From an uncultured Lachnospiraceae bacterium (lineage in GTDB: Bacteria; Bacillota; Clostridia; Lachnospirales; Lachnospiraceae): 64,000 bases of DNA. The stretch spans positions 62,001 through 126,000 of the forward strand of contig CAKRHP010000002.1 in NCBI GenBank assembly GCA_934339135.1, given 5' to 3'. The first letter of the stretch is position 1; each line of letters begins with the position of its first letter. Position numbers and translations under genes: made by a program. Under the pieces are notes generated by a model, which had not been told where the DNA came from, did no database searches, and was given only the letters and a program-made list of their open reading frames with translations. Positions 484 to 54,918 of the stretch are shown here, one piece after another.

Positions 484-2099
484 GATCTGCCTCCGTTCTT
501 TCCTTTAGTGGATTCAGTATGTTTTGGTGTCATCGTTTTCTTCTGCTTCAGGATCGGCTGGATACCGAAGACTTCTTCAAAGAAGTCAGAATGATTCTGA
601 AAAATGCCCTGCTCTAAGGTGATGTCATATAAGGTGCTTCCTGTAATGGTCAGTACCTGACTGCGCAGGGAGGTTGTGATCGCTGTAAATTTCTGTTTGT
701 GGCTTCGATCCATGGCATCTGCCAGACGCAGGATGGCATTGATCTTTGCGATGCGGACGTAATCCTCTTTATCAAAGCTGTCCTGAAGCTGGCTGTATTC
801 CGGAAAATAGTCCCGGAGATAACGTACAGCAGTGGCAACGATCATTCGTTCTTTGTGGGAGATACCGATCAGCTCTGTGGACATGATGATCTTGTAGGAA
901 TTTTCTCCTACATCCTTGAGGTTGATGTAACTGCCACAGTTATGGAGGATCACAGTAAGCTGCAGCAGGAGACGGTCATGCTTTGTCATATTCTGCTGGC
1001 GTTTTACCGCATCAAAGATCTTGAGAGCGGCATTTTCTACATAATCGCCGTGCTGCTTGCTGCAGCCGTAGCGATCCGCAATACTGCGGGCAGTATGGAT
1101 GATGTCATCCAGAAAGCTGTGAGCCGGAGTGATCTTTTCTTTGCGCTCGGCGAAATCGGCTGCCATGCCTTCACAAAGGGTGATTCCGGAAAGCCACATC
1201 TGCTCGGCACCGGTCTCCTCAAAAATATTGTGGTAGATCATAGCTGTCGGAAGCAGCAGGGAAGCCTGATCTACAGTGGTGTTTAACTCCTTTGCCAGAT
1301 CCTCCGGATGCTGGGAGGAGATTGCATCGTAGAATTCATCGTATTCCTGACGGCTGACAGAGTCTTTTTTCTTACCGCGGCTGTCAGTTGGCTGTAAGTG
1401 TCCGAAATTATGGACAGATAAGTATTTCACAAAGGTTCTCAGTTGATTTCCTACAGCAATTATATTTTTGACCTTATGGTCTCTCAGGTACTGCTCGGCA
1501 AAGGTATGCAGATCGTTGGAGATATATTCATATACCAGATTCTGATAGTTATCCGTGTGCTTCTGCATATCCTGTAAAAACTCCTGGATACGGAGAGAAC
1601 CCAGCAGGATATTCTGGGTACAGATCAGATTGTTTTTGTCAAACAGGGAAAGCTGCATACTGCCACCGCCCACATCCACCAGAAGAGTACCCTTCTGGAT
1701 CAGCCGGTGAAAGGAGTTTTCCTGCAGGGCGATAGATTTATAGCACAGATAACGCTGCTCGGAGTTGCTTAGGATCTTGATCCGAAAGCCTGTACGCTGG
1801 CGGACCTGATCCAGCACGATCAGGTTGTTGTCCGCCTCACGGAGAGCACTGGTGCTGGCAATCATATAATCGGAGATCCCGTACTCCTTCATTTTGTCCT
1901 TAAAGCCGTTTAATATGGTACAAAGCTTATCAATGGAATGATAGCTGATATGTTTGGTTGAGTATGTTTCGTATCCGAGACGAGCCGTATGGTGTACATA
2001 ATCAAGCTCCCTGATCCCAAACTTTTTGGAAACCTCATAGATACGCAGCGATGTCTCGTGGGAACCCACGTCGATGGCTGCAAAGGTGGTGATAGCCAT
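480..2099 (-). CDS. ppx: Exopolyphosphatase, Ppx/GppA family with C-terminal HD-like domain
   Basis: 539 residues. The N-terminal half is an ASKHA-fold phosphatase: phosphate-binding motif AIDVGSHETSLRIY near residues 8-21, and LLVDVGGGSMQLSLF near residue 140 as the second nucleotide-phosphate motif. The C-terminal part (about residues 330-510) has the histidine/aspartate-rich helical look of the HD region in long Ppx proteins. Expected role: removal of terminal phosphate from polyphosphate or pppGpp. The ATG is preceded by AAGGAGG at suitable distance. It is the first gene of an operon with ppk1, so synthesis and breakdown of polyphosphate are encoded together. Ppx versus GppA specificity cannot be read from sequence alone. 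Confidence 0.85.
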   Translation of the reverse strand: MAITTFAAIDVGSHETSLRIYEVSKKFGIRELDYVHHTARLGYETYSTKHISYHSIDKLCTILNGFKDKMKEYGISDYMIASTSALREADNNLIVLDQVRQRTGFRIKILSNSEQRYLCYKSIALQENSFHRLIQKGTLLVDVGGGSMQLSLFDKNNLICTQNILLGSLRIQEFLQDMQKHTDNYQNLVYEYISNDLHTFAEQYLRDHKVKNIIAVGNQLRTFVKYLSVHNFGHLQPTDSRGKKKDSVSRQEYDEFYDAISSQHPEDLAKELNTTVDQASLLLPTAMIYHNIFEETGAEQMWLSGITLCEGMAADFAERKEKITPAHSFLDDIIHTARSIADRYGCSKQHGDYVENAALKIFDAVKRQQNMTKHDRLLLQLTVILHNCGSYINLKDVGENSYKIIMSTELIGISHKERMIVATAVRYLRDYFPEYSQLQDSFDKEDYVRIAKINAILRLADAMDRSHKQKFTAITTSLRSQVLTITGSTLYDITLEQGIFQNHSDFFEEVFGIQPILKQKKTMTPKHTESTKGKNGGRS

Positions 2100-2300
2100 A
2101 TCTGAAATCCTCCTTATGGAATTTTCGTCATTATCATTATTGTACGTTATTTTTTACAAAATAACTAGCGTTTTTGGCAGATAATTCGACATTTTACTGC
2201 ACTTTTAAGAGAATTTACCTAAAGTTTACAAAAGGCTGGATTTTTTGTGGGAGAAATAGTATTATTTATAGATATACGATGTTGGAAAGGAAGTACAGAT

Positions 2301-3326
2301 ATGAAGACCGCAGATTTTGATTATGAACTGCCGCAGGAGCTGATCGCACAGGATCCCCTGGAGCAGAGAGACTCTTCGAGACTGCTTATTTTAGATAAAA
2401 GAACAGGGGAACGCACCCATAGGATCTTTCATGACATTATTGATTACCTGCATGAGGGAGACTGTCTGGTGATCAACAATACCAAGGTGATCCCGGCACG
2501 GCTCATCGGAGAGAGAGAAGGCACCGGAGGAAAGGTAGAGGTGCTTCTACTCAAGAGAAAGACGGACAATGTCTGGGAGACACTGGTAAAGCCCGGCAAA
2601 AAGGCAAGACCGGGGATGCGTCTTTCCTTTGGCGGTGGTCTTCTGCATGCAGAGGTACAGGAGGTTGTGGAAGAGGGCAATCGTCTGATCCGATTCGAAT
2701 ATGAAGGGATCTTTGAGGAGATTCTGGATCAGCTGGGACAGATGCCATTGCCACCGTATATTACACATCAGTTGAAGGATAAGAACCGTTATCAGACGGT
2801 TTATGCCAAGTATGAGGGGTCTGCGGCAGCACCGACGGCGGGACTTCATTTTACGGAGGAGTTATTGCAGCAGATTCAGGAGAAGGGAGTCAGGATTGCC
2901 CGTGTGACACTTCATGTCGGACTGGGTACATTCCGTCCGGTTAAGGTAGAGGATGTCACGGAGCATCATATGCACACAGAGTTTTATCACGTATCTCAGG
3001 AAGCAGCGGATATCATCAATGAAACCAAGAAGCAGGGAGGCAGGGTGATCTGCGTGGGTACCACCAGCTGCCGTACCATCGAGTCTGCTGCCGATGAGCA
3101 GGGAGTGGTGCAGGCGAAAGAGGGGGATACGGATATTTTTATTTATCCGGGGTACCGGTTCAAGGTACTGGACTGCCTGATCACCAATTTTCATCTGCCT
3201 GAGTCGACGCTTCTGATGCTGGTTTCTGCATTGGCGGGCAAGGAAAATATTATGGCAGCATATAAAGAAGCCGTAGAGATGAAATATCGGTTCTTCTCCT
3301 TTGGAGATGCTATGTTTATTGAGTGA
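2301..3326 (+). CDS. queA: S-adenosylmethionine:tRNA ribosyltransferase-isomerase
   Basis: 341 residues from the ATG at 2301, the usual QueA length. The open frame extends upstream to 2247, but 2301 has the ribosome site (GGAAAGGAAG just before) and starts with the family N-terminus [17 protein letters not shown]. Family motifs include the SRLL segment, [37 protein letters not shown] and, near the end, [16 protein letters not shown]. QueA moves the ribosyl group of SAM to preQ1 in tRNA, the penultimate step of queuosine synthesis. Divergent from ppx and followed after 95 bases by a lipid-kinase-like gene. Confidence 0.95.
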
Positions 3327-3421
3327 TTTTATAAATATCACGGAAGTCCTGTCCTGAGAAGAGAATCTTTGGGACAGAAACAAAGGAAGCACTGGAGATA
3401 CAGAAAGGATGCGGTGATTGT

Positions 3422-4390
3422 ATGGACAAGCATTATGACGGAGAGCAGAAAAAGCTGCGAAAGACGTTATTATTTATTTATAATCCCATGGCAGGGAAGG
3501 AGCAGATCAAGAATAAGCTGGCAGATATCATCCAGGTGTTCTGCGAGGCTGATTTTATTGTGACACTGATGGCGACCAACCGCCAGAATGATGCCAAAAA
3601 TGCAGTGATCGAGTATGGTTCCCGGTATGATTATGTGGTATGCTCCGGGGGAGACGGTACCATGAATGAGGTAGCCAATGGTATGATGCGCCTTCACGAA
3701 AAGCCGATCTGCGGCTATATTCCGGCAGGAACGGTTAATGATTTCGCATCCAGTCTGCGGATCCCGAAGATCATGCGTCATGCGGCAGAGCTTGTGACAC
3801 AGGGGAAGGTGTTCCGGTGTGATCTGGGCTCCTTTAATGACAAGTTTTTTACCTACGTGGCAGGTTTTGGTGCCTTTACGGAGGTGTCTTACACGACACC
3901 ACAGGAGTGGAAAAACATGCTTGGTAAGACCGCCTATTTTATTGAAGGGCTGAAGCATCTGGCAGAGATCAAGCCTCATCATATGCGTATCACCTATGAT
4001 GATGGTGTGGTTGAGGATGATTTTGTGCTGGGACTTGTAAGCAATTCTGTTTCGGTAGCCGGTTATAAGGCCTATAAAAAAGAAGACATCAAGATGGATG
4101 ACGGTCTCTTTGAGGTGCTGTTTATCCGGGATCTGAAAAATGCACTGGAGCTGCAGGAGGTCTTAAATGCTCTGCTGACAAAGCATCTGGATGCCACAAA
4201 GATGTTCCGCTGCAGCAGCAGACATCTTCATATTGTCTGTGATGATGAGGTACAGTGGACTCTGGACGGTGAGGATGGCGGCAGCTGGGATGAAGTGGAT
4301 CTGTTTAATCATCAGCAGGTACTGCCGATCATCTGTGGAGACGAAGCACTGGAGGATATCTCATCGCAGATGGGCGAGGAGCCGGTGTGA
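3422..4390 (+). CDS. Diacylglycerol kinase-like lipid kinase (DagK/YegS family)
   Basis: 322 residues. The N-terminal diacylglycerol-kinase catalytic domain is clear: FIYNPMAGK near residue 18, the nucleotide-binding loop VVCSGGDGTMNEVANGM near residue 76, and CGYIPAGTVNDFASSL near residue 99. The C-terminal half fits the beta-rich domain of soluble lipid kinases. Expected to phosphorylate diacylglycerol or a related lipid at the membrane surface; the exact substrate is not determined by the sequence. It ends before a strong terminator at 4467. Confidence 0.85.
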   Translation: MDKHYDGEQKKLRKTLLFIYNPMAGKEQIKNKLADIIQVFCEADFIVTLMATNRQNDAKNAVIEYGSRYDYVVCSGGDGTMNEVANGMMRLHEKPICGYIPAGTVNDFASSLRIPKIMRHAAELVTQGKVFRCDLGSFNDKFFTYVAGFGAFTEVSYTTPQEWKNMLGKTAYFIEGLKHLAEIKPHHMRITYDDGVVEDDFVLGLVSNSVSVAGYKAYKKEDIKMDDGLFEVLFIRDLKNALELQEVLNALLTKHLDATKMFRCSSRHLHIVCDDEVQWTLDGEDGGSWDEVDLFNHQQVLPIICGDEALEDISSQMGEEPV

Positions 4391-4546: not shown

Positions 4547-5317
4547 TTAAGACAGCTCAGCAATCCGGGATACTCCCACATAAATGTCGCTGATCCGGTA
4601 CCAGGTCGGATAGTCCACGACTCCGGTCTGTGGCAGGTTAAATACTTTCTGGAAAGTACGGACCGCTTCAGCGGTATTTTCTCCGTAAATACCGTCTGCA
4701 GCCACCTTTGGAATTAATGGATATCCTTTAGAAATGGTGTTAAGCTGGTTTTGGAGCTGGCGTACTTTTTCACCGGTAGAGCCGATGGTCAGATCATAGC
4801 CGGGCCAGGAGGATGGAATACCGGAAATCTCCTCAGAAGAATTAATAAAGACGGAATCCCCGTAGAACCGGCGGAGGATCTCAATGGCGGAATAGCCCTG
4901 ATCTCCCAGTGTTTTGGACTCCCACTGGCGCATCCAGCGTGGGCAGGAAACCCGTTTTCCGTCGCAGTATTGTGTGAAAAGAGGTTGCGTAATATTCGGT
5001 CTGGATATATAATTGGAAAATATCGTATCTACTGCCTGGGAGATACTTTCAAAAATATTACGCCCCGGCATATATTTTTGGTCATATGCGGTAGAACTGG
5101 TAATGGTGAAGTCATATCCGCGGTTGCGATACCATTCCGTGTACACGCGGTTTAAGGTGATAGATTGGATTGCCAGGATGTTTGCCAACAGGGTTGCTTC
5201 CGGCCAGGTGGCATAAATTTCACTGGAAGCGACATTTTTGATGTAATCTTTATACTTGACATAATAGTTTTGTGCTCCGGAATCGCTTGGCGGTCCGTCA
5301 TGTACGATTACATATTC
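4547..5317 (-). CDS. sleC: Spore cortex-lytic enzyme SleC, C-terminal part (gene interrupted by element)
   Basis: 256 codons with no start of their own: the frame is open from 5417 but has no ATG or GTG, and the first possible start is an unsupported TTG at 5188. From 5317 it reads EYVIVHDGPPSDSGAQNYY, then a SpoIID-like lytic domain (DYIKNVASSEIYATWPE, then YTEWYRNRGYDFTITSSTAYDQ) and a C-terminal peptidoglycan-binding repeat (GEKVRQLQNQLN; DGIYGENTAEAVRTFQKVF). This is the mature half of a SleC-type cortex lytic transglycosylase. The conserved Glu of SSEIY is the likely catalytic residue by analogy with SpoIID. The missing N-terminal half is at 10902-11396, beyond an inserted element. In this arrangement no active enzyme could be made. 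Confidence 0.85.
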   Translation of the reverse strand, partial: EYVIVHDGPPSDSGAQNYYVKYKDYIKNVASSEIYATWPEATLLANILAIQSITLNRVYTEWYRNRGYDFTITSSTAYDQKYMPGRNIFESISQAVDTIFSNYISRPNITQPLFTQYCDGKRVSCPRWMRQWESKTLGDQGYSAIEILRRFYGDSVFINSSEEISGIPSSWPGYDLTIGSTGEKVRQLQNQLNTISKGYPLIPKVAADGIYGENTAEAVRTFQKVFNLPQTGVVDYPTWYRISDIYVGVSRIAELS

Positions 5318-5333
5318 GGGGGCAGGAGTGAGA
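5306..5333. other. Left junction (attL-like) of the sleC element
   Basis: Contains GATTACATATTC (sleC side), the core GGGG at 5318-5321 and the element arm CAGGAGTGAGA at 5323-5333. The sleC frame remains in phase with the core (CCC GAA TAT on the gene strand). A second shared word, GATTAC, occurs at 5306-5311 and at 10905-10910 and is an alternative crossover that would also stay in frame but drop three residues. Confidence 0.65.
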
Positions 5334-5427
5334 AAGATAGATATTTGAAAAGTGACTGAAGTGTGCTGGGCAGCGATTGTGTCTGAAATTTGAAGTTTGC
5401 AGACGCAGAAAGGAATTTAGGATTTAT

Positions 5428-6702
5428 ATGAAAGAACAATCCTCCCGCAGGGAGTTAAAATGGTCGAGACTGGATAACACAGCCAATCTGTTCCCGGTGA
5501 TCGCCACGGAGCGGATGACCAATGTGTATCGATTGTCTCTGACTTTAGAGGAAGAAATTGATCCAGAATTGTTACAGCAGGCACTGGATAAGATCCTGCC
5601 GTTATTTGATTCTATGAATGTCCGTCTTCGGACAGGGGCATTCTGGTATTATTTTGAGACAAACCGGAAACCGGCACCGAGAGTGGAGCAGGAAAGTGAA
5701 TATCCCTGCCGTAAGATGGAGCCACAACTTAATAACCAGTATTTATTCCGAGTGAGCTACTACAAAAGACGTATCAATTTGGAGGTATTTCATGTACTTG
5801 CCGATGGAATGGGCGGTGTAACTTTCTTAAAAGAGCTGGCATGCCAGTATCTGCGTCTGGCACATCCGGAGATATGTAATGAGGTGGGAGATCATCTTTC
5901 GGAGCAGACTTCGTTAAATACGGAGGATAGTTATCTCAAAAATTTCCGCAAGGGACAGCCGAAGGGGTACAAATCCCAGCCGGCATTTCATATGAATGGA
6001 GAGAAGCTCAGGGATGGTGCGTTTGGTGTGATCCAGGGATATCTTCCTCTGGCGCAGATCAAGGAGGTGGCACATCACAGAAATGTCAGTATTAATGAAT
6101 ATCTGGCAGGAGTTTATGTCTATAGCATATATCGGGAATATCTTCATGGAGCGGTATCGGACAAGCCGGTGGTTCTTTGTGTGCCGGTGAATCTGCGGCC
6201 TTATTTTGAGTCTATTACCACACGGAATTTTTTTGCCATGATCAGTGCAGCATTGTGTCCGGACAAGGAGGATTATACCAGAGATGAGGTAGAGCAGGTT
6301 GTAGTGAAAGCTTTACGGGAGCAGATCAATAAAGAGCATTTGGAAAAGCTGTTTTCTTACAATGTATCCAACCAGAAAAATCTGATGCTGCGGGCAGTTC
6401 CACTGGTATTGAAGAAATTTGTCATGCAGTGGGTTTATCAGGTCAGTGCCAGAGCTACCACCACGACCATGACCAATCTGGGTGTGATGAAGGTTGACAG
6501 GGCATATGAACCATATATCAAACGGTTTGCGGCCATTCTTTCGGTGTCCCAGGGACAAAATACAAAGATGACGGTATGCTCTTATGGAGAAGAGATGGTG
6601 GTTGCATTCTGCACGATCTTAAGAGATGTGTCGGTGCAGAAGCGGTTCTTCCGGGTACTGGCGGAGGATGGCATTGAGGCTGCGGTGGAGAGCAATCTGT
6701 GA
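5428..6702 (+). CDS. Condensation/alcohol-acetyltransferase-like protein (element cargo)
   Basis: 424 residues from the ATG at 5428; an in-frame upstream start at 5377 is possible but has no better ribosome site. Residues 120-131 carry EVFHVLADGMGG, the HxxxDG active-site motif of the chloramphenicol acetyltransferase/condensation superfamily that includes PapA-type acyltransferases and alcohol acetyltransferases. Later segments (CVPVNLRPYF, TMTNLGVM) also fit that fold. Probable acyl transfer to a small or lipid alcohol; substrate unknown. It is first of three tightly packed genes with a zinc-ribbon membrane protein and an alpha/beta hydrolase, suggesting one pathway that makes and remodels an ester. 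It begins only about 105 bases from the element end. Confidence 0.7.
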   Translation: MKEQSSRRELKWSRLDNTANLFPVIATERMTNVYRLSLTLEEEIDPELLQQALDKILPLFDSMNVRLRTGAFWYYFETNRKPAPRVEQESEYPCRKMEPQLNNQYLFRVSYYKRRINLEVFHVLADGMGGVTFLKELACQYLRLAHPEICNEVGDHLSEQTSLNTEDSYLKNFRKGQPKGYKSQPAFHMNGEKLRDGAFGVIQGYLPLAQIKEVAHHRNVSINEYLAGVYVYSIYREYLHGAVSDKPVVLCVPVNLRPYFESITTRNFFAMISAALCPDKEDYTRDEVEQVVVKALREQINKEHLEKLFSYNVSNQKNLMLRAVPLVLKKFVMQWVYQVSARATTTTMTNLGVMKVDRAYEPYIKRFAAILSVSQGQNTKMTVCSYGEEMVVAFCTILRDVSVQKRFFRVLAEDGIEAAVESNL

Positions 6703-6740
6703 AACGGCATTTCGAAACAAAGCGAAGGGGGAGCTGGAGC

Positions 6741-7412
6741 GTGAAATATTGTAAAAGATGTGAGGTTGAGGTCGTGGGAGACCGTGAAGTATGTCCTTTA
6801 TGCAGCAGTGTTCTTCATGTGGATGAAAAGCCTGCCGGACAGGAGGACTCTTTTCCGGACATTGCAGCGAAAAACAAGGTGCGACGGAAGGTATTCTGGA
6901 TCTGTGCGTATATCTGTGTTCTGATCGAAGCACTGCTTTTGGGGTTGAACAGGATATTTTCTCCAGAGGTACGCTGGTCCCTCATTTCCGGTGCGTCAGA
7001 AGCTTATGTGCTTCTCAGCCTGTGGCAGATCCTGAGCCGCAGGAAAGGTCATATTAGTAAGCTTTATTTTCAGGAAGCCGCAGTTTTTCTGCTTTTGTTG
7101 GGGATTGATTATTCCCTTGGTTTTCAGGGATGGTCTGTTAAATATGGATTTCCATGTGTTCTTTTGGGATTTGCAGTAATCATTCTGCTGTGCATGATCA
7201 TCAATTTTGCAAACTGGCAGAATTATCTGACCATGCAGGTATTTATGGCAGCATTTAGTCTGGCATTTTTAATCTATTCCATGATCGGGACTTATGGAAA
7301 TCCCATTCTGGCATGGATCGTTTTTGGAATCTATCTGACATTGTGGGTTATGACAATGCTCATTGGAGGAAGAAAGGCTGAGAACGAGATACGAAGGAAA
7401 TTCCACTTATAG
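6741..7412 (+). CDS. Zinc-ribbon membrane protein (DUF6320-like, element cargo)
   Basis: 223 residues from a GTG at 6741 with GGGGGAG upstream; an in-frame GTG at 6699 overlapping the previous stop is the alternative. Cys4, Cys7, Cys18 and Cys21 form a short zinc ribbon (CKRC and CPLC), followed by about six hydrophobic segments, beginning WICAYICVLIEALLLG. This arrangement is known from conserved Firmicute membrane proteins of unknown function encoded next to acetyltransferase-like and alpha/beta hydrolase genes, as here. Inner membrane location is expected; no catalytic motif is visible. Confidence 0.6.
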   Translation: MKYCKRCEVEVVGDREVCPLCSSVLHVDEKPAGQEDSFPDIAAKNKVRRKVFWICAYICVLIEALLLGLNRIFSPEVRWSLISGASEAYVLLSLWQILSRRKGHISKLYFQEAAVFLLLLGIDYSLGFQGWSVKYGFPCVLLGFAVIILLCMIINFANWQNYLTMQVFMAAFSLAFLIYSMIGTYGNPILAWIVFGIYLTLWVMTMLIGGRKAENEIRRKFHL

Positions 7413-7510
7413 TTTGAGGATAATGAAGAAAGAGACCCGCTTTAAATTGTAATTGTTCTATGGAAGAAAATATTTCGGATGGACAAGTTTTTACAGAAAG
7501 GAGACCGTAC

Positions 7511-8401
7511 ATGAGCGTGAAAGGAAGGATCGTGACGGATATGATCCGTTTTTTTACTGCCCAGAAGATGCTGGGACCCAAGATTCAGGATGGCACTCTG
7601 CGCAAAAATCTGGTGGAAGCACCATGGCACTGTCCGGAGGAATATATTAATCTGCCGATTCATATGAGACAGTTTGAGATGGAGCTTCTGACCCCCAAGG
7701 AAGAGGATTGTGGGGAAGTGATCCTGCAGCTTCACGGGGGCGGATATATTGCAAAGATCCGTAATGCCTACCGGGATTTTGCTGTTCGATACAGTCAGAT
7801 CAGGGGGTATCGTGTTCTGTCGGTAGATTACCGCGTAGCACCGGAGCATCCGTATCCGGCGGCATTTCAGGATGCGCTGGAGGCCTATCGGTGGCTGTTG
7901 TATTCCGGATTTACCGGGGACCGGATCATATTGGCGGGAGATTCTGCCGGGGGAGGTCTGGTGCTGGCACTGGCAATGTATCTCAGAGATCAGGGAATGC
8001 CTCTGCCTCAGAGGATGATCATGATGTCTCCGTGGACGGATCTGACGGCGTCCGGTCCATCTTATGAGGAGAATTATGAGAAAGATCCGCTTTTTGGTAA
8101 TACAAGAGAGAGTATGATCTATAACGGAGAATATGTCGGAAAAGAAAATCCCAGACTGCCGTATATATCACCACTTTTTGGAGATTTTGCCGGGCTGCCG
8201 CCGATGTTGTTTCAGGTGGGAAGCCTGGAAATGCTGCTCAGTGATTCTGTGCTTGCGGCAGAGAAGGCAAAGAAAGCGGGCTGTGATGTGACATTAACGG
8301 TCTATCCGGAAATGTTTCATGTATTTCAGCTTAGTATGGACAGACTTCCGGAGTCGAAGGATGCCTGGGAAGAGATCCGGAAGTTTTTGAGAAAAGAGTG
8401 A
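7511..8401 (+). CDS. Alpha/beta hydrolase, hormone-sensitive-lipase family (element cargo)
   Basis: 296 residues from the ATG at 7511, chosen for AAAGGAG nine bases upstream rather than the frame start at 7460. Oxyanion motif HGGGY at residues 75-79 and nucleophile elbow GDSAGG at 143-148 (Ser145) are typical of HSL-type esterases; YRVAPEHPYPAAFQD follows the family pattern, and a histidine in EMFHVFQL completes the triad. No signal peptide, so cytoplasmic. Likely hydrolyses a short-chain ester or acetyl group. Followed by a terminator at 8431, closing the cargo operon. Confidence 0.8.
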   Translation: MSVKGRIVTDMIRFFTAQKMLGPKIQDGTLRKNLVEAPWHCPEEYINLPIHMRQFEMELLTPKEEDCGEVILQLHGGGYIAKIRNAYRDFAVRYSQIRGYRVLSVDYRVAPEHPYPAAFQDALEAYRWLLYSGFTGDRIILAGDSAGGGLVLALAMYLRDQGMPLPQRMIMMSPWTDLTASGPSYEENYEKDPLFGNTRESMIYNGEYVGKENPRLPYISPLFGDFAGLPPMLFQVGSLEMLLSDSVLAAEKAKKAGCDVTLTVYPEMFHVFQLSMDRLPESKDAWEEIRKFLRKE

Positions 8402-8430
8402 CGGAAGTTAAAATATATCAGAAAAATTAT

Positions 8431-8468
8431 GGGTGTGTCCAGATTTTGGGACATGCCCTTTGTTATTC
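8431..8468 (+). terminator. Terminator of the cargo operon
   Basis: Hairpin 8431-8440 with 8449-8458 (ten pairs, two of them G-T), then TTTGTTATT. It insulates the cargo genes from the recombinase operon that starts downstream. Confidence 0.6.
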
Positions 8469-8505
8469 GTTTGCAGATTTTTTTCGGAAGAGAGAGAAAG
8501 CTTAG

Positions 8506-8535
8506 AGATATTTTTTGTGACAATATCATATATTA
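8506..8535 (+). promoter_or_regulatory. Sigma-E-like promoter of the recombinase operon
   Basis: AGATATT at 8506-8512, a 14-base spacer, then CATATATT at 8527-8534. This matches the mother-cell sigma-E consensus of Bacillus (KMATATT, 14-15 bases, CATACAHT) at most positions. No good vegetative TTGACA/TATAAT pair is seen in the 229-base gap. The predicted start of transcription is about 90 bases before the first gene at 8631. Inference from consensus only. Confidence 0.55.
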
Positions 8536-8630
8536 AGACAAGATCACACAATGAGTCAGAGGGGATTCAAAATTGGAGTTTTTCAGAAGTTTTAAAGTGT
8601 GAAAAGACAGGATATGAGGCAGGAATCAGG

Positions 8631-8801
8631 ATGGAAGAGTATATCTATAAAGGAAATTATGAAGGATATGATGTATATATTGCTTACGCGGAAGAGGGAC
8701 CGACGATAGAAGAAGCCTATGCTCTCTACCGGGAGGCATGCCGCAGTGCGCGGTACCACAGTCTTGTGGAAATGGCAGAGAGTGAGGTGGAACAGGAGTG
8801 A
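8631..8801 (+). CDS. 56-residue protein coupled to recombinase 1; candidate directionality factor
   Basis: 56 residues, acidic overall (MEEYIYKGNYEGYDVYIAYA at the start, EVEQE at the end), with AGGCAGGAA six bases before the ATG. Its stop overlaps the GTG of recombinase 1 by four bases (GTGA at 8798-8801), so the two are probably co-translated. I do not recognise the family. Position as first gene of a recombinase operon, small size and coupling suggest an accessory or directionality factor for excision, but no DNA-binding motif is evident. Confidence 0.6.
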   Translation: MEEYIYKGNYEGYDVYIAYAEEGPTIEEAYALYREACRSARYHSLVEMAESEVEQE

Positions 8802-9973
8802 TACGCTGTGTTTTTTATCTGCGTCTGTCCCGGGAAGACGGAACCGGAGAAAGCAACAGTATACAAAACCAGAGAATGCTATTGCAGCGTTATCTGGAGG
8901 ACAGGGAGGACATGACCTGTGTGGGGGAATGGGTGGATGACGGCTGGAGCGGCAGCAATTATGAGCGGCCGGCATTTCGGAAGATGATGCGGGCGGCAGC
9001 GGCGGGAAAATTTGATTGCATTCTGTGTAAGGATCTGTCCCGCCTTGGCAGGGAGTATATTCAGACCGGACATTTTCTGCGGGAGATCTTTCCAAAAATG
9101 GGAATGCGTTTTATTGCTGTTGCGGATCATTATGACAGTGCTGTCGGTGATTTTATGGAGGAATCTCTGCTGATTCCGGTGATGAATCTTATGAATGATG
9201 CGTATTGCCGGGATATTTCCAACAAGGTACGGTGGCAGCAGAAGACAAAACGTGCTATGGGAGAATATATCGGAGCCTTTGCCTGCTATGGATACCGGAA
9301 AAGTGAAAAAGATATTCATAGGCTGGAACTTGATGAGCCGGCGGCAAAAACGGTAAAGCTGATCTATTTGCTGCGGCTTAGCGGTATGGCAGCAGAAAAT
9401 ATTGCCAGTGTACTAAATAAGGGACACATTCAAAGTCCCTATCAATACAAGCTGGCTGGCGGCAGTCGATATCGAAGCGGGTTTGTAGCGATGAGTTCGG
9501 CTGAAAAGAAAAATAGGGAAAAAAATAATCAGAATCCGGCTAAAGAAAGATTATGGACGCCCCAGACGGTGCGGCGGATCCTGGCCAATGAAATGTATAC
9601 AGGAGTGATGATTCAGGGAAAAGACCGTAAGATCAGCTATAAGCTGGACAAACGGATTCCATTGCCAAAGGGGCAGTGGGCGAGGGTAGAAAATGCTCTT
9701 CCGGTCATTATTCCGAAGTGGATCTATGACATTGTCGAAAATCTGCGTGTGAAAAGAATCCGTTGCAGGAAAGGAAGTGTATTTTGTGACGAACTGGTTG
9801 GATATGGACTGACCGAAGGACAGCAGAAAATATGTGCAGAAGTGATGGGAAAGCTGCTTTGTGATGGGGCTGGTGCCATGTGGCAGAGACGTCTGTTAAA
9901 TGTACTGTTAGTGCGGAACATCAGGATGGATGGGAAGAAAATCTATATTATGTATCGAAGCAGGAGGAAATAA
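8798..9973 (+). CDS. Serine recombinase 1 of the sleC element
   Basis: 391 residues, GTG start overlapping the previous stop. Resolvase catalytic domain at the N-terminus: YLRLSRED with the nucleophile Ser11, and KDLSRLGREYIQTGHFLREIF carrying the active-site arginines. A recombinase domain follows (about residues 165-310), including TPQTVRRILANEMYTGVMIQG. The C-terminal zinc-ribbon and coiled-coil regions of typical 500-residue large serine recombinases appear absent, so the protein is short for the family. Expected to cut and rejoin the element ends through a two-base crossover. A second recombinase follows 46 bases downstream. Confidence 0.9.
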   Translation: MIRCVFYLRLSREDGTGESNSIQNQRMLLQRYLEDREDMTCVGEWVDDGWSGSNYERPAFRKMMRAAAAGKFDCILCKDLSRLGREYIQTGHFLREIFPKMGMRFIAVADHYDSAVGDFMEESLLIPVMNLMNDAYCRDISNKVRWQQKTKRAMGEYIGAFACYGYRKSEKDIHRLELDEPAAKTVKLIYLLRLSGMAAENIASVLNKGHIQSPYQYKLAGGSRYRSGFVAMSSAEKKNREKNNQNPAKERLWTPQTVRRILANEMYTGVMIQGKDRKISYKLDKRIPLPKGQWARVENALPVIIPKWIYDIVENLRVKRIRCRKGSVFCDELVGYGLTEGQQKICAEVMGKLLCDGAGAMWQRRLLNVLLVRNIRMDGKKIYIMYRSRRK

Positions 9974-10019
9974 GTGAAAAGTGGGTGTGGACTGAAAGGA
10001 AAGGAGGGAGGAGAGTTCT

Positions 10020-10922
10020 GTGGAGATCATGACAGGTATTTATGCCAGACTGTCGGTGAAACACGGCGATGATAAGGATCAGAGTCTGGAACAGCAGATT
10101 CGTCTGGCAAAGCAGTGGGTTCAGCAGAAAAATACATTTGCAAACATGAAAGAAAATTGTCGGAATGGGAGAGAAAACGATCAATATACTATATATGATA
10201 CTTATATGGATATGGGGTACAGTGGAACTACCTTTGAACGGCCGGGGTTTCAAAGGTTGCTTGCAGATGCACAGAACGGCAGCATTCAGTGTATTCTCTG
10301 TAAGGATGCGTCACGGATCGGCAGGGATTATCTGAAAACAGGAGAATACCTTGAAAAAATATTTCCCATGCTGGGAGTAAAAGTGATCTGTATCAGCGAT
10401 CCGTACGGTGACACAGAGGATCAATGGAAATATGAAATGCCCGGCAGTTTGTCAGAAAATCTGAGAAATCTGATGAATGAATGGTATGCCCGAGATATTG
10501 GACGGCGGGTACGTCTGATAAAACAACAGAAAAAAGCACAGGGAGAATATCTGGGAAGTGTACCCCCTTATGGATGGAGGATAGACAGGCACGCCGGAAA
10601 GAGAATATTGGTACCGGATGAGCAGTTGAAGGATATTCTGTCTCTGATGGCATCTCTCCGGCATAAAAAGATGTCATATGGACAGATCGCAGATATTCTC
10701 AATCAAAGAGGGATACGGACACCGCAGGAATATCGGCAAAGTGGCAGGGTGTATCGACAAGGATATCCCCGGCAGCAAGCAGGAAATCCAAGCAGGACGA
10801 ATACATTTCCGGAAACCGGCAGATGCTTGTCAGAAGAAGTACCGTCTGAATTAAACTGGGGTGCTTCCGGGGTGCGCCGTATTCTTTTATCGCACACCAG
10901 AGGGGATTACCACACGACTTAA
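10020..10922 (+). CDS. Serine recombinase 2 of the sleC element, 3' end crosses the right junction
   Basis: 300 residues from the GTG at 10020 (AAGGAGGGAGGAG upstream; an ATG at 10029 is too distant). Catalytic domain intact: YARLSVK with Ser12, then KDASRIGRDYLKTGEYLEKIF. It stops early in the recombinase domain, at [10 protein letters not shown], where recombinase 1 continues with YTGVMIQG. The reading frame runs through the core at 10902-10905 and ends inside sleC. In the excised circle the same frame would instead continue into the left end of the element and stop at 5359 (tail GGRSEKDRYLKSD). It is therefore either a truncated partner of recombinase 1 or a protein whose tail depends on the integration state. 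Confidence 0.85.
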   Translation: MEIMTGIYARLSVKHGDDKDQSLEQQIRLAKQWVQQKNTFANMKENCRNGRENDQYTIYDTYMDMGYSGTTFERPGFQRLLADAQNGSIQCILCKDASRIGRDYLKTGEYLEKIFPMLGVKVICISDPYGDTEDQWKYEMPGSLSENLRNLMNEWYARDIGRRVRLIKQQKKAQGEYLGSVPPYGWRIDRHAGKRILVPDEQLKDILSLMASLRHKKMSYGQIADILNQRGIRTPQEYRQSGRVYRQGYPRQQAGNPSRTNTFPETGRCLSEEVPSELNWGASGVRRILLSHTRGDYHTT

Positions 10923-11396
10923 TACAATTTCGCCGGTTTCACTGACATCCTTTACCTCACTTTCCGGGATCTTTGGAGGATAATCTCCGTAAAGGGTATG
11001 AGGGGGAATGACAAAAAGTTCACTGTCGTCGTTGGGTGTTTCGAACTGTGGAATCAATGAAATGTTCTGTAAAGAAATCTGCCCTGACAGGATCTCTGCG
11101 CCGGAAATAACCGTAGGTTCAAAACCGGGAGCCGTGATCTTTAAGTTAAAAACAGAATATGGCTGGGCAGATAAAGGCTCCAGACTGTACTCTAAAGGAG
11201 GTGCAGGAAGATCAATGGTATCTGTCTGACCGTTAGGATCTGTGGTCAGTTCTTCCAGCACTTGTTCCGGCTCATTGCTGTCCGTGATCTGTACCGTTGC
11301 ATTGGAAACGGCACGGGAACTGATCATGGAACTGACATTTACAAGCAGCTGCCCGGTATCCGGACGGTCCTGCTGTGTGGCATATAATTGAGACAT
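10887..11396 (-). CDS. sleC: Spore cortex-lytic enzyme SleC, N-terminal pro-region part (gene interrupted by element)
   Basis: 169 codons with ATG at 11396 and GGAGGAG five bases before it. The first 165 (to 10902) belong to sleC and the last four (SGVR) plus the stop are element sequence. The product has a beta-rich N-terminal domain ([10 protein letters not shown], then [20 protein letters not shown]) like that preceding the catalytic domain in clostridial SleC-type proteins, and ends [10 protein letters not shown]. Adding the 256 codons at 4547-5317 gives a 421-residue protein, close to the size of clostridial SleC (about 430). In C. perfringens the propeptide is removed near residue 150 by Csp proteases, so the break is close to the pro/mature boundary. 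Alone this fragment lacks any lytic domain. Confidence 0.85.
10890..10910. other. Right junction (attR-like) of the sleC element
   Basis: Element arm TCGCACACCAG at 10890-10900, core GGGG at 10902-10905 and sleC sequence GATTACCAC beyond. The arm is an imperfect inverted copy (8 of 11) of the left-end arm at 5323-5333. The 3' end of recombinase 2 lies across this site. Confidence 0.65.
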
Positions 11397-54799: not shown

Positions 54800-54813
54800 A
54801 ATATAGAATGAAA

Positions 54814-54918
54814 ACTTCATGTGACTGACGGAGTAAGCAGGAGTACCTGCGGGAAGCATGAGGAATAGGAAAAGCCGACCGTCTGGGCAGCCGCAAGGGT
54901 TGTTCGGGCGGTTTTTGT
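54814..54918 (+). ncRNA. ZTP (pfl) riboswitch with intrinsic terminator
   Basis: The leader shows the pfl-motif order: TTCATG-TGACTGACGGAGTAAGC, then CCTGCGGGAAGCATGAGGAA (closing stem TTCATG/CATGAGGAA), a short linker, and the highly conserved GCCGACCGTCTGGGCAG (54874-54890). The last part can pair with CGGGCGGT (54905-54912), followed by TTTTTGTTTTTT, to form a terminator. ZTP signals shortage of 10-formyl-THF. The two downstream genes catalyse the last two purine steps, including the formyl-THF step, which fits exactly. Confidence 0.88.

Follow-up and report, generated by a model that had tools for sequence, protein, structure and literature searches.

A split and rejoined sleC-type germination gene in Lachnospiraceae points to a reversible genetic switch

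The split sleC locus and the described intervening elements

Several systems are described in which a sporulation gene is interrupted by a DNA element and reconstituted by its excision. The skin element of sigK (Bacillus subtilis; skinCd in Clostridioides difficile, PMC5025042) interrupts a mother-cell sporulation gene, carries its own serine recombinase and leaves a precisely rejoined gene. The gin element in gerE of B. cereus ATCC10987, established by experiment, is a non-phage interval of 28.6 kb with several serine recombinases, an additional factor (GirX) and a short common core of 9 bp flanked by imperfect inverted repeats (PMC5595907). The yin element in yabG of C. botulinum V73 is prophage-like, is reported as unique to one strain and was found in split and excised forms together (PMC10747680). 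Sporulation-specific reconstitution by excision is also known for SPbeta in spsM and vfbin in spoVFB, which are prophage or prophage-like intervals in spore-surface and dipicolinate genes (cited in PMC10747680 and PMC5595907). Here we describe a sleC-type germination gene that is split by a recombinase-carrying interval within a stretch of 64,000 nucleotides from an uncultured Lachnospiraceae bacterium (the window), and whose rejoined form occurs in public sequences. Split and rejoined gene together point to a reversible genetic switch, and we consider it probable that the interruption is site-specific and reversible, works like the sigK skin and is excised in the mother cell by the recombinases of the interval.

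A preliminary description, made from the letters of the window, had read two minus-strand frames as the halves of one SleC-type gene with serine recombinases in the 5,584-bp gap between them. Both statements were confirmed: coordinates, frames and lengths are right and the gap holds two genes of the Resolvase family. The elements of the split gene are listed here; P0001 and P0002 are joined database proteins treated below, and att denotes attachment sites.

10902..11396, minus strand: sleC 5′ half, 165 codons, ending ATC CCC (SRVVIP); identical to residues 1-165 of P0002
4547..5317, minus strand: sleC 3′ half, 256 codons and a stop, starting GAA TAT (EYVIVH); identical to residues 166-421 of P0001
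5318..10901: 5,584-bp excisable interval; P0001 and P0002 show the joined form
10902..10905: att core at the end of the 5′ half, GGGG on the plus strand and CCCC on the sleC strand
5318..5322: att core at the end of the 3′ half, GGGGG on the plus strand
8798..9973, plus strand: serine recombinase 1 (here recA, 391 amino acids (aa)), Resolvase and Recombinase domains (Pfam)
10020..10922, plus strand: serine recombinase 2 (here recB, 300 aa), Pfam Resolvase; its 3′ end crosses the att site and lies within the 5′ half of sleC
11438-11430, minus strand: -10-like box of sleC, CATAGAATA, of sigma-E/K type

The 3′ half carries SpoIID and PG_binding_1 domains (Pfam). A scan with NCBIfam/Pfam-type models gave no match of the window gene to a SleC-named model and weak matches below the cut-off to SleB and others; that the gene is a sleC we assume from its domain architecture (PG_binding_1 plus SpoIID), which is that of SleC. 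The 5′ half retains the ribosome site GGAGGAGCTTTATG, which together with the CATAGAATA box locates the ribosome site and sporulation-type promoter that had been ascribed to it. The box CATANNNTA, which we take to be the sigma-E/sigma-K -10 consensus, lies at most 150 bp upstream of sleC at 22 of 34 hand-picked loci, where mononucleotide shuffles give an expectation of 3.4. The 3′ half of the window lacks an in-frame ATG, GTG or TTG ahead of codon 44.

For the interruption position of the window, called site A, the attP arms were reconstructed from seven loci and match as inverted repeats around the C run at 70 of 112 positions, in a register chosen for symmetry (2000 random trials gave a mean of 28 and at most 46). 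This register would place the core in the C run, and attB would then retain ATC CCC GAA in frame. The recB frame stops within the sleC 5′ half (10902-10922); in a circle it would be extended to about 307 aa with another tail.

With the skin/gin class the locus shares a sporulation or germination gene whose reading frame is interrupted (the germination role of sleC being taken from work on C. difficile), a site-specific recombinase encoded in the interval, a short shared core flanked by attP inverted repeats in the symmetry-chosen register, and natural sequences in which precise excision appears to have restored the frame (P0001-P0003 and locus L119). Scans with Pfam and NCBIfam recognised no phage structural genes among the scanned frames of the window's site-A interval. 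Viral contigs contain 14 loci with relatives of recA, all at most 45% identical, so that no close copy of the element was seen among viral contigs. Judged from these features, the sleC interruption appears to be a member of the skin/gin class with a new target gene.

The locus differs from skin in that a germination enzyme and not a sigma factor is hit, that the recombinases are paired, that no phage genes were recognised at site A and that the interval carries genes which belong to the locus in relatives. It resembles gin as a non-phage element with several serine recombinases, a further candidate factor and imperfect inverted repeats around a short core, whereas its size (5.6 kb), its core (CCCC) and its target are different; gin is known from experiment and the sleC interval, here, from comparison. 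Like yin, it is found in split and excised forms and lies in the same pathway, since YabG processes pre-pro-SleC in C. difficile (PMC10747680); unlike yin, it is not prophage-like, sits in a different gene and occurs in several genomes. Two adjacent serine recombinases are also a feature of CcrA/CcrB of the staphylococcal cassette chromosome (SCC) cassettes, to which weak sequence kinship exists, but the best scores are 44-47 against curated cut-offs of 700-900, the target is another one and no cassette genes were seen. No description of an interrupted sleC was found in the searched literature, which covered few subscription papers; the papers found there that mention both sleC and an intervening element deal with yabG and sigK, in agreement with the earlier statement that no such element was known in sleC.

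Rejoined genes and conservation of the two halves

The joined gene was sought in a protein search of 5.8 billion sequences, from which the best 120 of 7995 were examined. Among these, P0001 and P0002 are joined and have 421 aa, exactly the length of the uninterrupted frame that had been predicted. The sole difference of P0001 from the window halves is at residue 40 and that of P0002 at residue 157 of the 3′ half; at one residue's distance, both probably belong to the species of the window. In a sister species the protein P0106 (214 aa, on 99 contigs) starts at the same in-frame TTG as the split frame of the window and, from this start, is presumably the split form; the joined P0003, found on one contig, has 0 mismatches to it over 213 residues. 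Both forms also occur in one metagenome-assembled genome (MAG), G010, with an element end on contig L013 and the joined VVIP-EYVIV frame on contig L119, identical over the 58 bp common to both. At a further interruption position (site D, see below) the split P0184, on 74 contigs, and the joined P0236, on 18, have 316 residues in common. The preliminary description had named TAATCCCCGAATATG as the joint to look for in an intact relative; the intact L005 has GTAATCCCCGAATATG, with the same joint bases.

A misassembly behind the split or the joined form appears extremely improbable to us. The data consist mostly of MAGs and chimera-like proteins do occur in the database, but the split recurs in the same order in separate genomes, including Butyribacter intestini TF01-11, and P0001-P0003 and L119 join at the 4-bp run, in the predicted register and not within a conserved stretch. 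The chimera-like proteins are P0005, P0006 and P0010-P0013, which were dropped as joined forms because their 5′ parts resemble other species. By reading, their switch of species lies inside a conserved stretch, a caution for the use of protein catalogues.

The 3′ half was used to scan one genome per species (84,980 species), by which 420 relatives were confirmed and the best 80 kept. Eleven of these 80 are split at the codon of the window (site A), four at another position (site B) and 65 are intact; recurrence at the same codon in 11 of 80 relatives is more than chance. L073, counted among the 65, is interrupted by a contig break; it was excluded from the tree, and L073/L121 was for this reason rejected as a split and taken as an intact gene. 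Both halves lie on a single contig in six of the 11 site-A relatives, the 5′ half lies on another contig of the same genome in L006, L007, L008 and L013 (in L013 in joined form), and for L001 the 3′ half alone was found. If the window is included, seven loci have the two halves on the same contig; six of them share the gene order and L019 does likewise with a single recombinase. The named strain B. intestini TF01-11 carries the split on a contig of 1.5 Mb.

The halves had been described as stop-free, and zero premature stops were found in ten 5′ halves and twelve 3′ halves of split loci. The ratio of nonsynonymous to synonymous substitution rates (dN/dS) between split genes has a median of 0.040 for the 3′ half (14 unsaturated of 66 pairs) and of 0.142 for the 5′ half (6 of 45); between intact genes the values are 0.083 and 0.183, respectively (5 unsaturated of 91 pairs each). 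Six of the 12 split loci, including the window, offer the 3′ half no in-frame start, either upstream of it or ahead of codon 44; codons 1-43 nevertheless look conserved in all 12. The simplest reading is that selection acts on the joined protein. On this sequence evidence, the split is old and maintained.

These values make it very improbable that the insertion killed sleC and left decaying remnants or two separate proteins. Such an outcome would agree with the occurrence of the 3′ half as a stand-alone database protein of 214-289 aa and with the element end preceding the 3′ half, which at four of the 12 split loci contains an in-frame start. In L008 and L019 a start lies inside the first 30 codons of the 3′ half. 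The same outcome does not agree with a dN/dS of 0.04-0.14 and zero stops, nor with the conserved look of codons 1-43 at the six loci that have no start before codon 44, and it is already largely contradicted by the existence of joined genes.

Further split positions and control genes

The frequency of interrupted sleC genes was determined in 397 genomes from the family of genome G002, of which 258 match SleC, a few by the peptidoglycan-binding stretch only. Among the matches listed, 34 of the 258 are split. Site A accounts for three of them, site C (residues about 227-229, numbering of the L005 SleC) for 11 and site D (about residue 293) for 20, and both halves lie on one contig in 16 of the 34. 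For this count 43 and 63 genomes were re-searched and the others were taken from long matches, except for G002, G003 and G006, which were examined separately; G160, G059, G180, G220 and G244 are among those for which the count relies on a single half that runs into other sequence. G218 (3′ half plus intact copy) and G068 (contig edge) are omitted, and G181 is included despite an intact copy.

Two control genes were treated in the same family sample. QueA is matched in 382 of 397 genomes, and no element split was seen in the 29 odd ones re-searched by eye, partial ones such as G349 and G291 being ambiguous; two-piece matches about 100 bp apart were rejected as splits, since one open frame runs through them and the gaps are loops. 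SpoIVA is matched in 258 of 397 genomes, again with no element split seen among ten odd genomes re-searched by eye, which are explained by contig edges, by a frameshift or by a single open frame (G138 is ambiguous). With the strict count, 16 of 258 compares with 0 of 382 for QueA (Fisher p 4e-7) and with 0 of 258 for SpoIVA (p 2e-5), p values that are too small because the genomes are related.

Ten intervals scanned at sites B-D carry serine or tyrosine recombinases. Those scanned at sites C and D have serine recombinases, and the site-B interval L032 has a tyrosine integrase with a weak match to a Tn916-type domain. Serine recombinases are 21-34% alike between sites, compared with 39-48% within site D, 36-65% within site C and 43-67% for the recA proteins of site A; by these identities the three serine recombinase lineages are distant kin. 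Altogether, sleC of Lachnospiraceae has four interruption positions and four recombinase lineages. On the SleC tree (111 rows) the split and intact states change 23 times, where the least possible number is 4 and the shuffled mean 43.9.

How the spores of gut commensals germinate matters for transmission and for therapies based on spores. If more than a tenth of the sampled carriers have a sleC locked by excisable DNA (the 34 of 258 given above), genome surveys will misread the gene as broken or hypothetical.

Some site-C and site-D intervals are 14-24 kb long and contain other genes (L135, L139, L130/L131), and the site-D interval L133 has a frame of 858 aa (1133-3709) beside the recombinase. 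In L181 a divergent SleC-like gene (35-46% to L005) is split at the site-C position by an interval of 2 kb that encodes a serine recombinase of its own.

Genes within the interval and the proposed excision

Besides the recombinases, the interval in the window contains four further open reading frames (ORFs).

5428..6702, plus strand: acyltransferase-like protein, weak match to a wax ester/DGAT family below the cut-off; 3′ of sleC in several intact relatives
6699..7412, plus strand: DUF6320 protein; 3′ of sleC in several intact relatives
7460..8401, plus strand: alpha/beta hydrolase (Abhydrolase_3); 3′ of sleC in several intact relatives
8631..8801, plus strand: small acidic ORF, 56 aa, isoelectric point (pI) 4.3, overlapping the recA start

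The trio of hydrolase, DUF6320 protein and acyltransferase lies just 3′ of sleC and convergent to it in the intact L005, L010, L012 and L015 and likewise in the site-B loci L026, L028 and L032, and at site-A loci it sits between the sleC halves. No trio was found in the fetched flanks of L009, L016, L017, L018, L020 and L033 (the flank being short for L017, L018 and L020), nor in those of more distant loci among L021-L048; the acyltransferase is present somewhere in 22 of 23 genomes searched. The trio tree agrees with the sleC tree, the site-A loci L013 and L014 grouping with the intact L012 and L015 (100/100), and a single site-A clade is rejected (approximately unbiased test, p-AU 7.6e-8), so that the trio was discarded as ordinary mobile cargo. 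As it shares the history of sleC, excision would remove genes that are otherwise inherited with sleC. The trio may have come with the interval and stayed, or may have been engulfed; we could conceive no simple inversion that yields its position. Of the skin-like excisable element of the preliminary description, the split, the att sites and the joined genes stand; the interval is not simply foreign, since it carries neighbour genes of sleC.

Genome G004 has, besides its split locus, a second full-length SleC (L124 on C19, 61% to L005) and a second acyltransferase copy (G004:C61:26153-27415), both of which represent paralogues or contamination.

The 56-aa acidic ORF is a candidate directionality factor. 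The window, L002, L003, L004, L011, L117 and L118 each have a small acidic ORF (pI 4.1-5.2) that ends at the start of recA, and none was found there in L014 or L019. The versions of the window, L002, L003 and L004 resemble one another, those of L011, L117 and L118 less so.

According to the proposed mechanism, sleC would be split in growing cells and the full enzyme not made. The paired serine recombinases would recombine the two CCCC-core att sites, by which 5.6 kb would be released as a circle and the uninterrupted 421-codon sleC restored. Excision would most likely occur during sporulation and in the mother cell, a terminal cell that expresses sleC, and the germ line would therefore retain the split form. 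This timing is suggested by analogy to skinCd, in which a constitutive recombinase awaits a mother-cell directionality factor (PMC5025042), and by the fact that sleC of C. difficile is a sigma-K mother-cell gene (PMC3789822). Sequence support for the timing is limited to sleC's own promoter box.

Several observations, together with the in-frame starts at the 3′ halves mentioned above, weigh against programmed excision. Upstream of the recombinases the CATANNNTA box shows no enrichment (5 of 21, with 3.5 expected), the joint pattern is present in one of 11 site-A genomes, and an exact pattern search of these 11 genomes for the joint of the excised circle gave 0 matches, with two places at two mismatches. 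The circle pattern has four matches in viral contigs, and the one that was read (L188) looks unrelated. One site-D species has no joined form among the best 120 proteins listed. The contig of P0003 measures 30 kb, which is long for a rare excised form, and joined forms could derive from element-free strains as well as from excision within a clone.

The last two points, the 18 contigs of joined P0236 beside 74 of split P0184, the missing box enrichment and the 23 state changes would also suit a polymorphism of populations, in which a mobile element repeatedly enters and leaves sleC across strains, by chance and not during development, joined genes come from strains without the element, and strains with the split gene germinate poorly or rely on other enzymes. 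We regard this as unlikely. Purifying selection on both site-A halves is strong throughout loci with recA proteins that are only 43-67% alike, from which the joined protein seems to be needed while the split is inherited, and the interval includes genes that share sleC's history.

Excision in the mother cell may extend beyond site A. We lean slightly towards sleC being a convergent hotspot of programmed DNA elimination, in which each of the four recombinase lineages would lock the gene until mother-cell excision; the site-A interval would then have become part of the chromosome, a host-owned developmental switch and not a parasite, at the price of three locus genes lost per mother cell. If this is true, a long-standing question becomes testable, namely whether skin-like elements persist as tolerated parasites or have been selected as timing devices, because four recombinase lineages settled in one gene and none in the two sampled control genes.

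Elsewhere in the window, a ZMP/ZTP riboswitch is located at 54811-54895 on the plus strand (Rfam RF01750, E value 1e-06).

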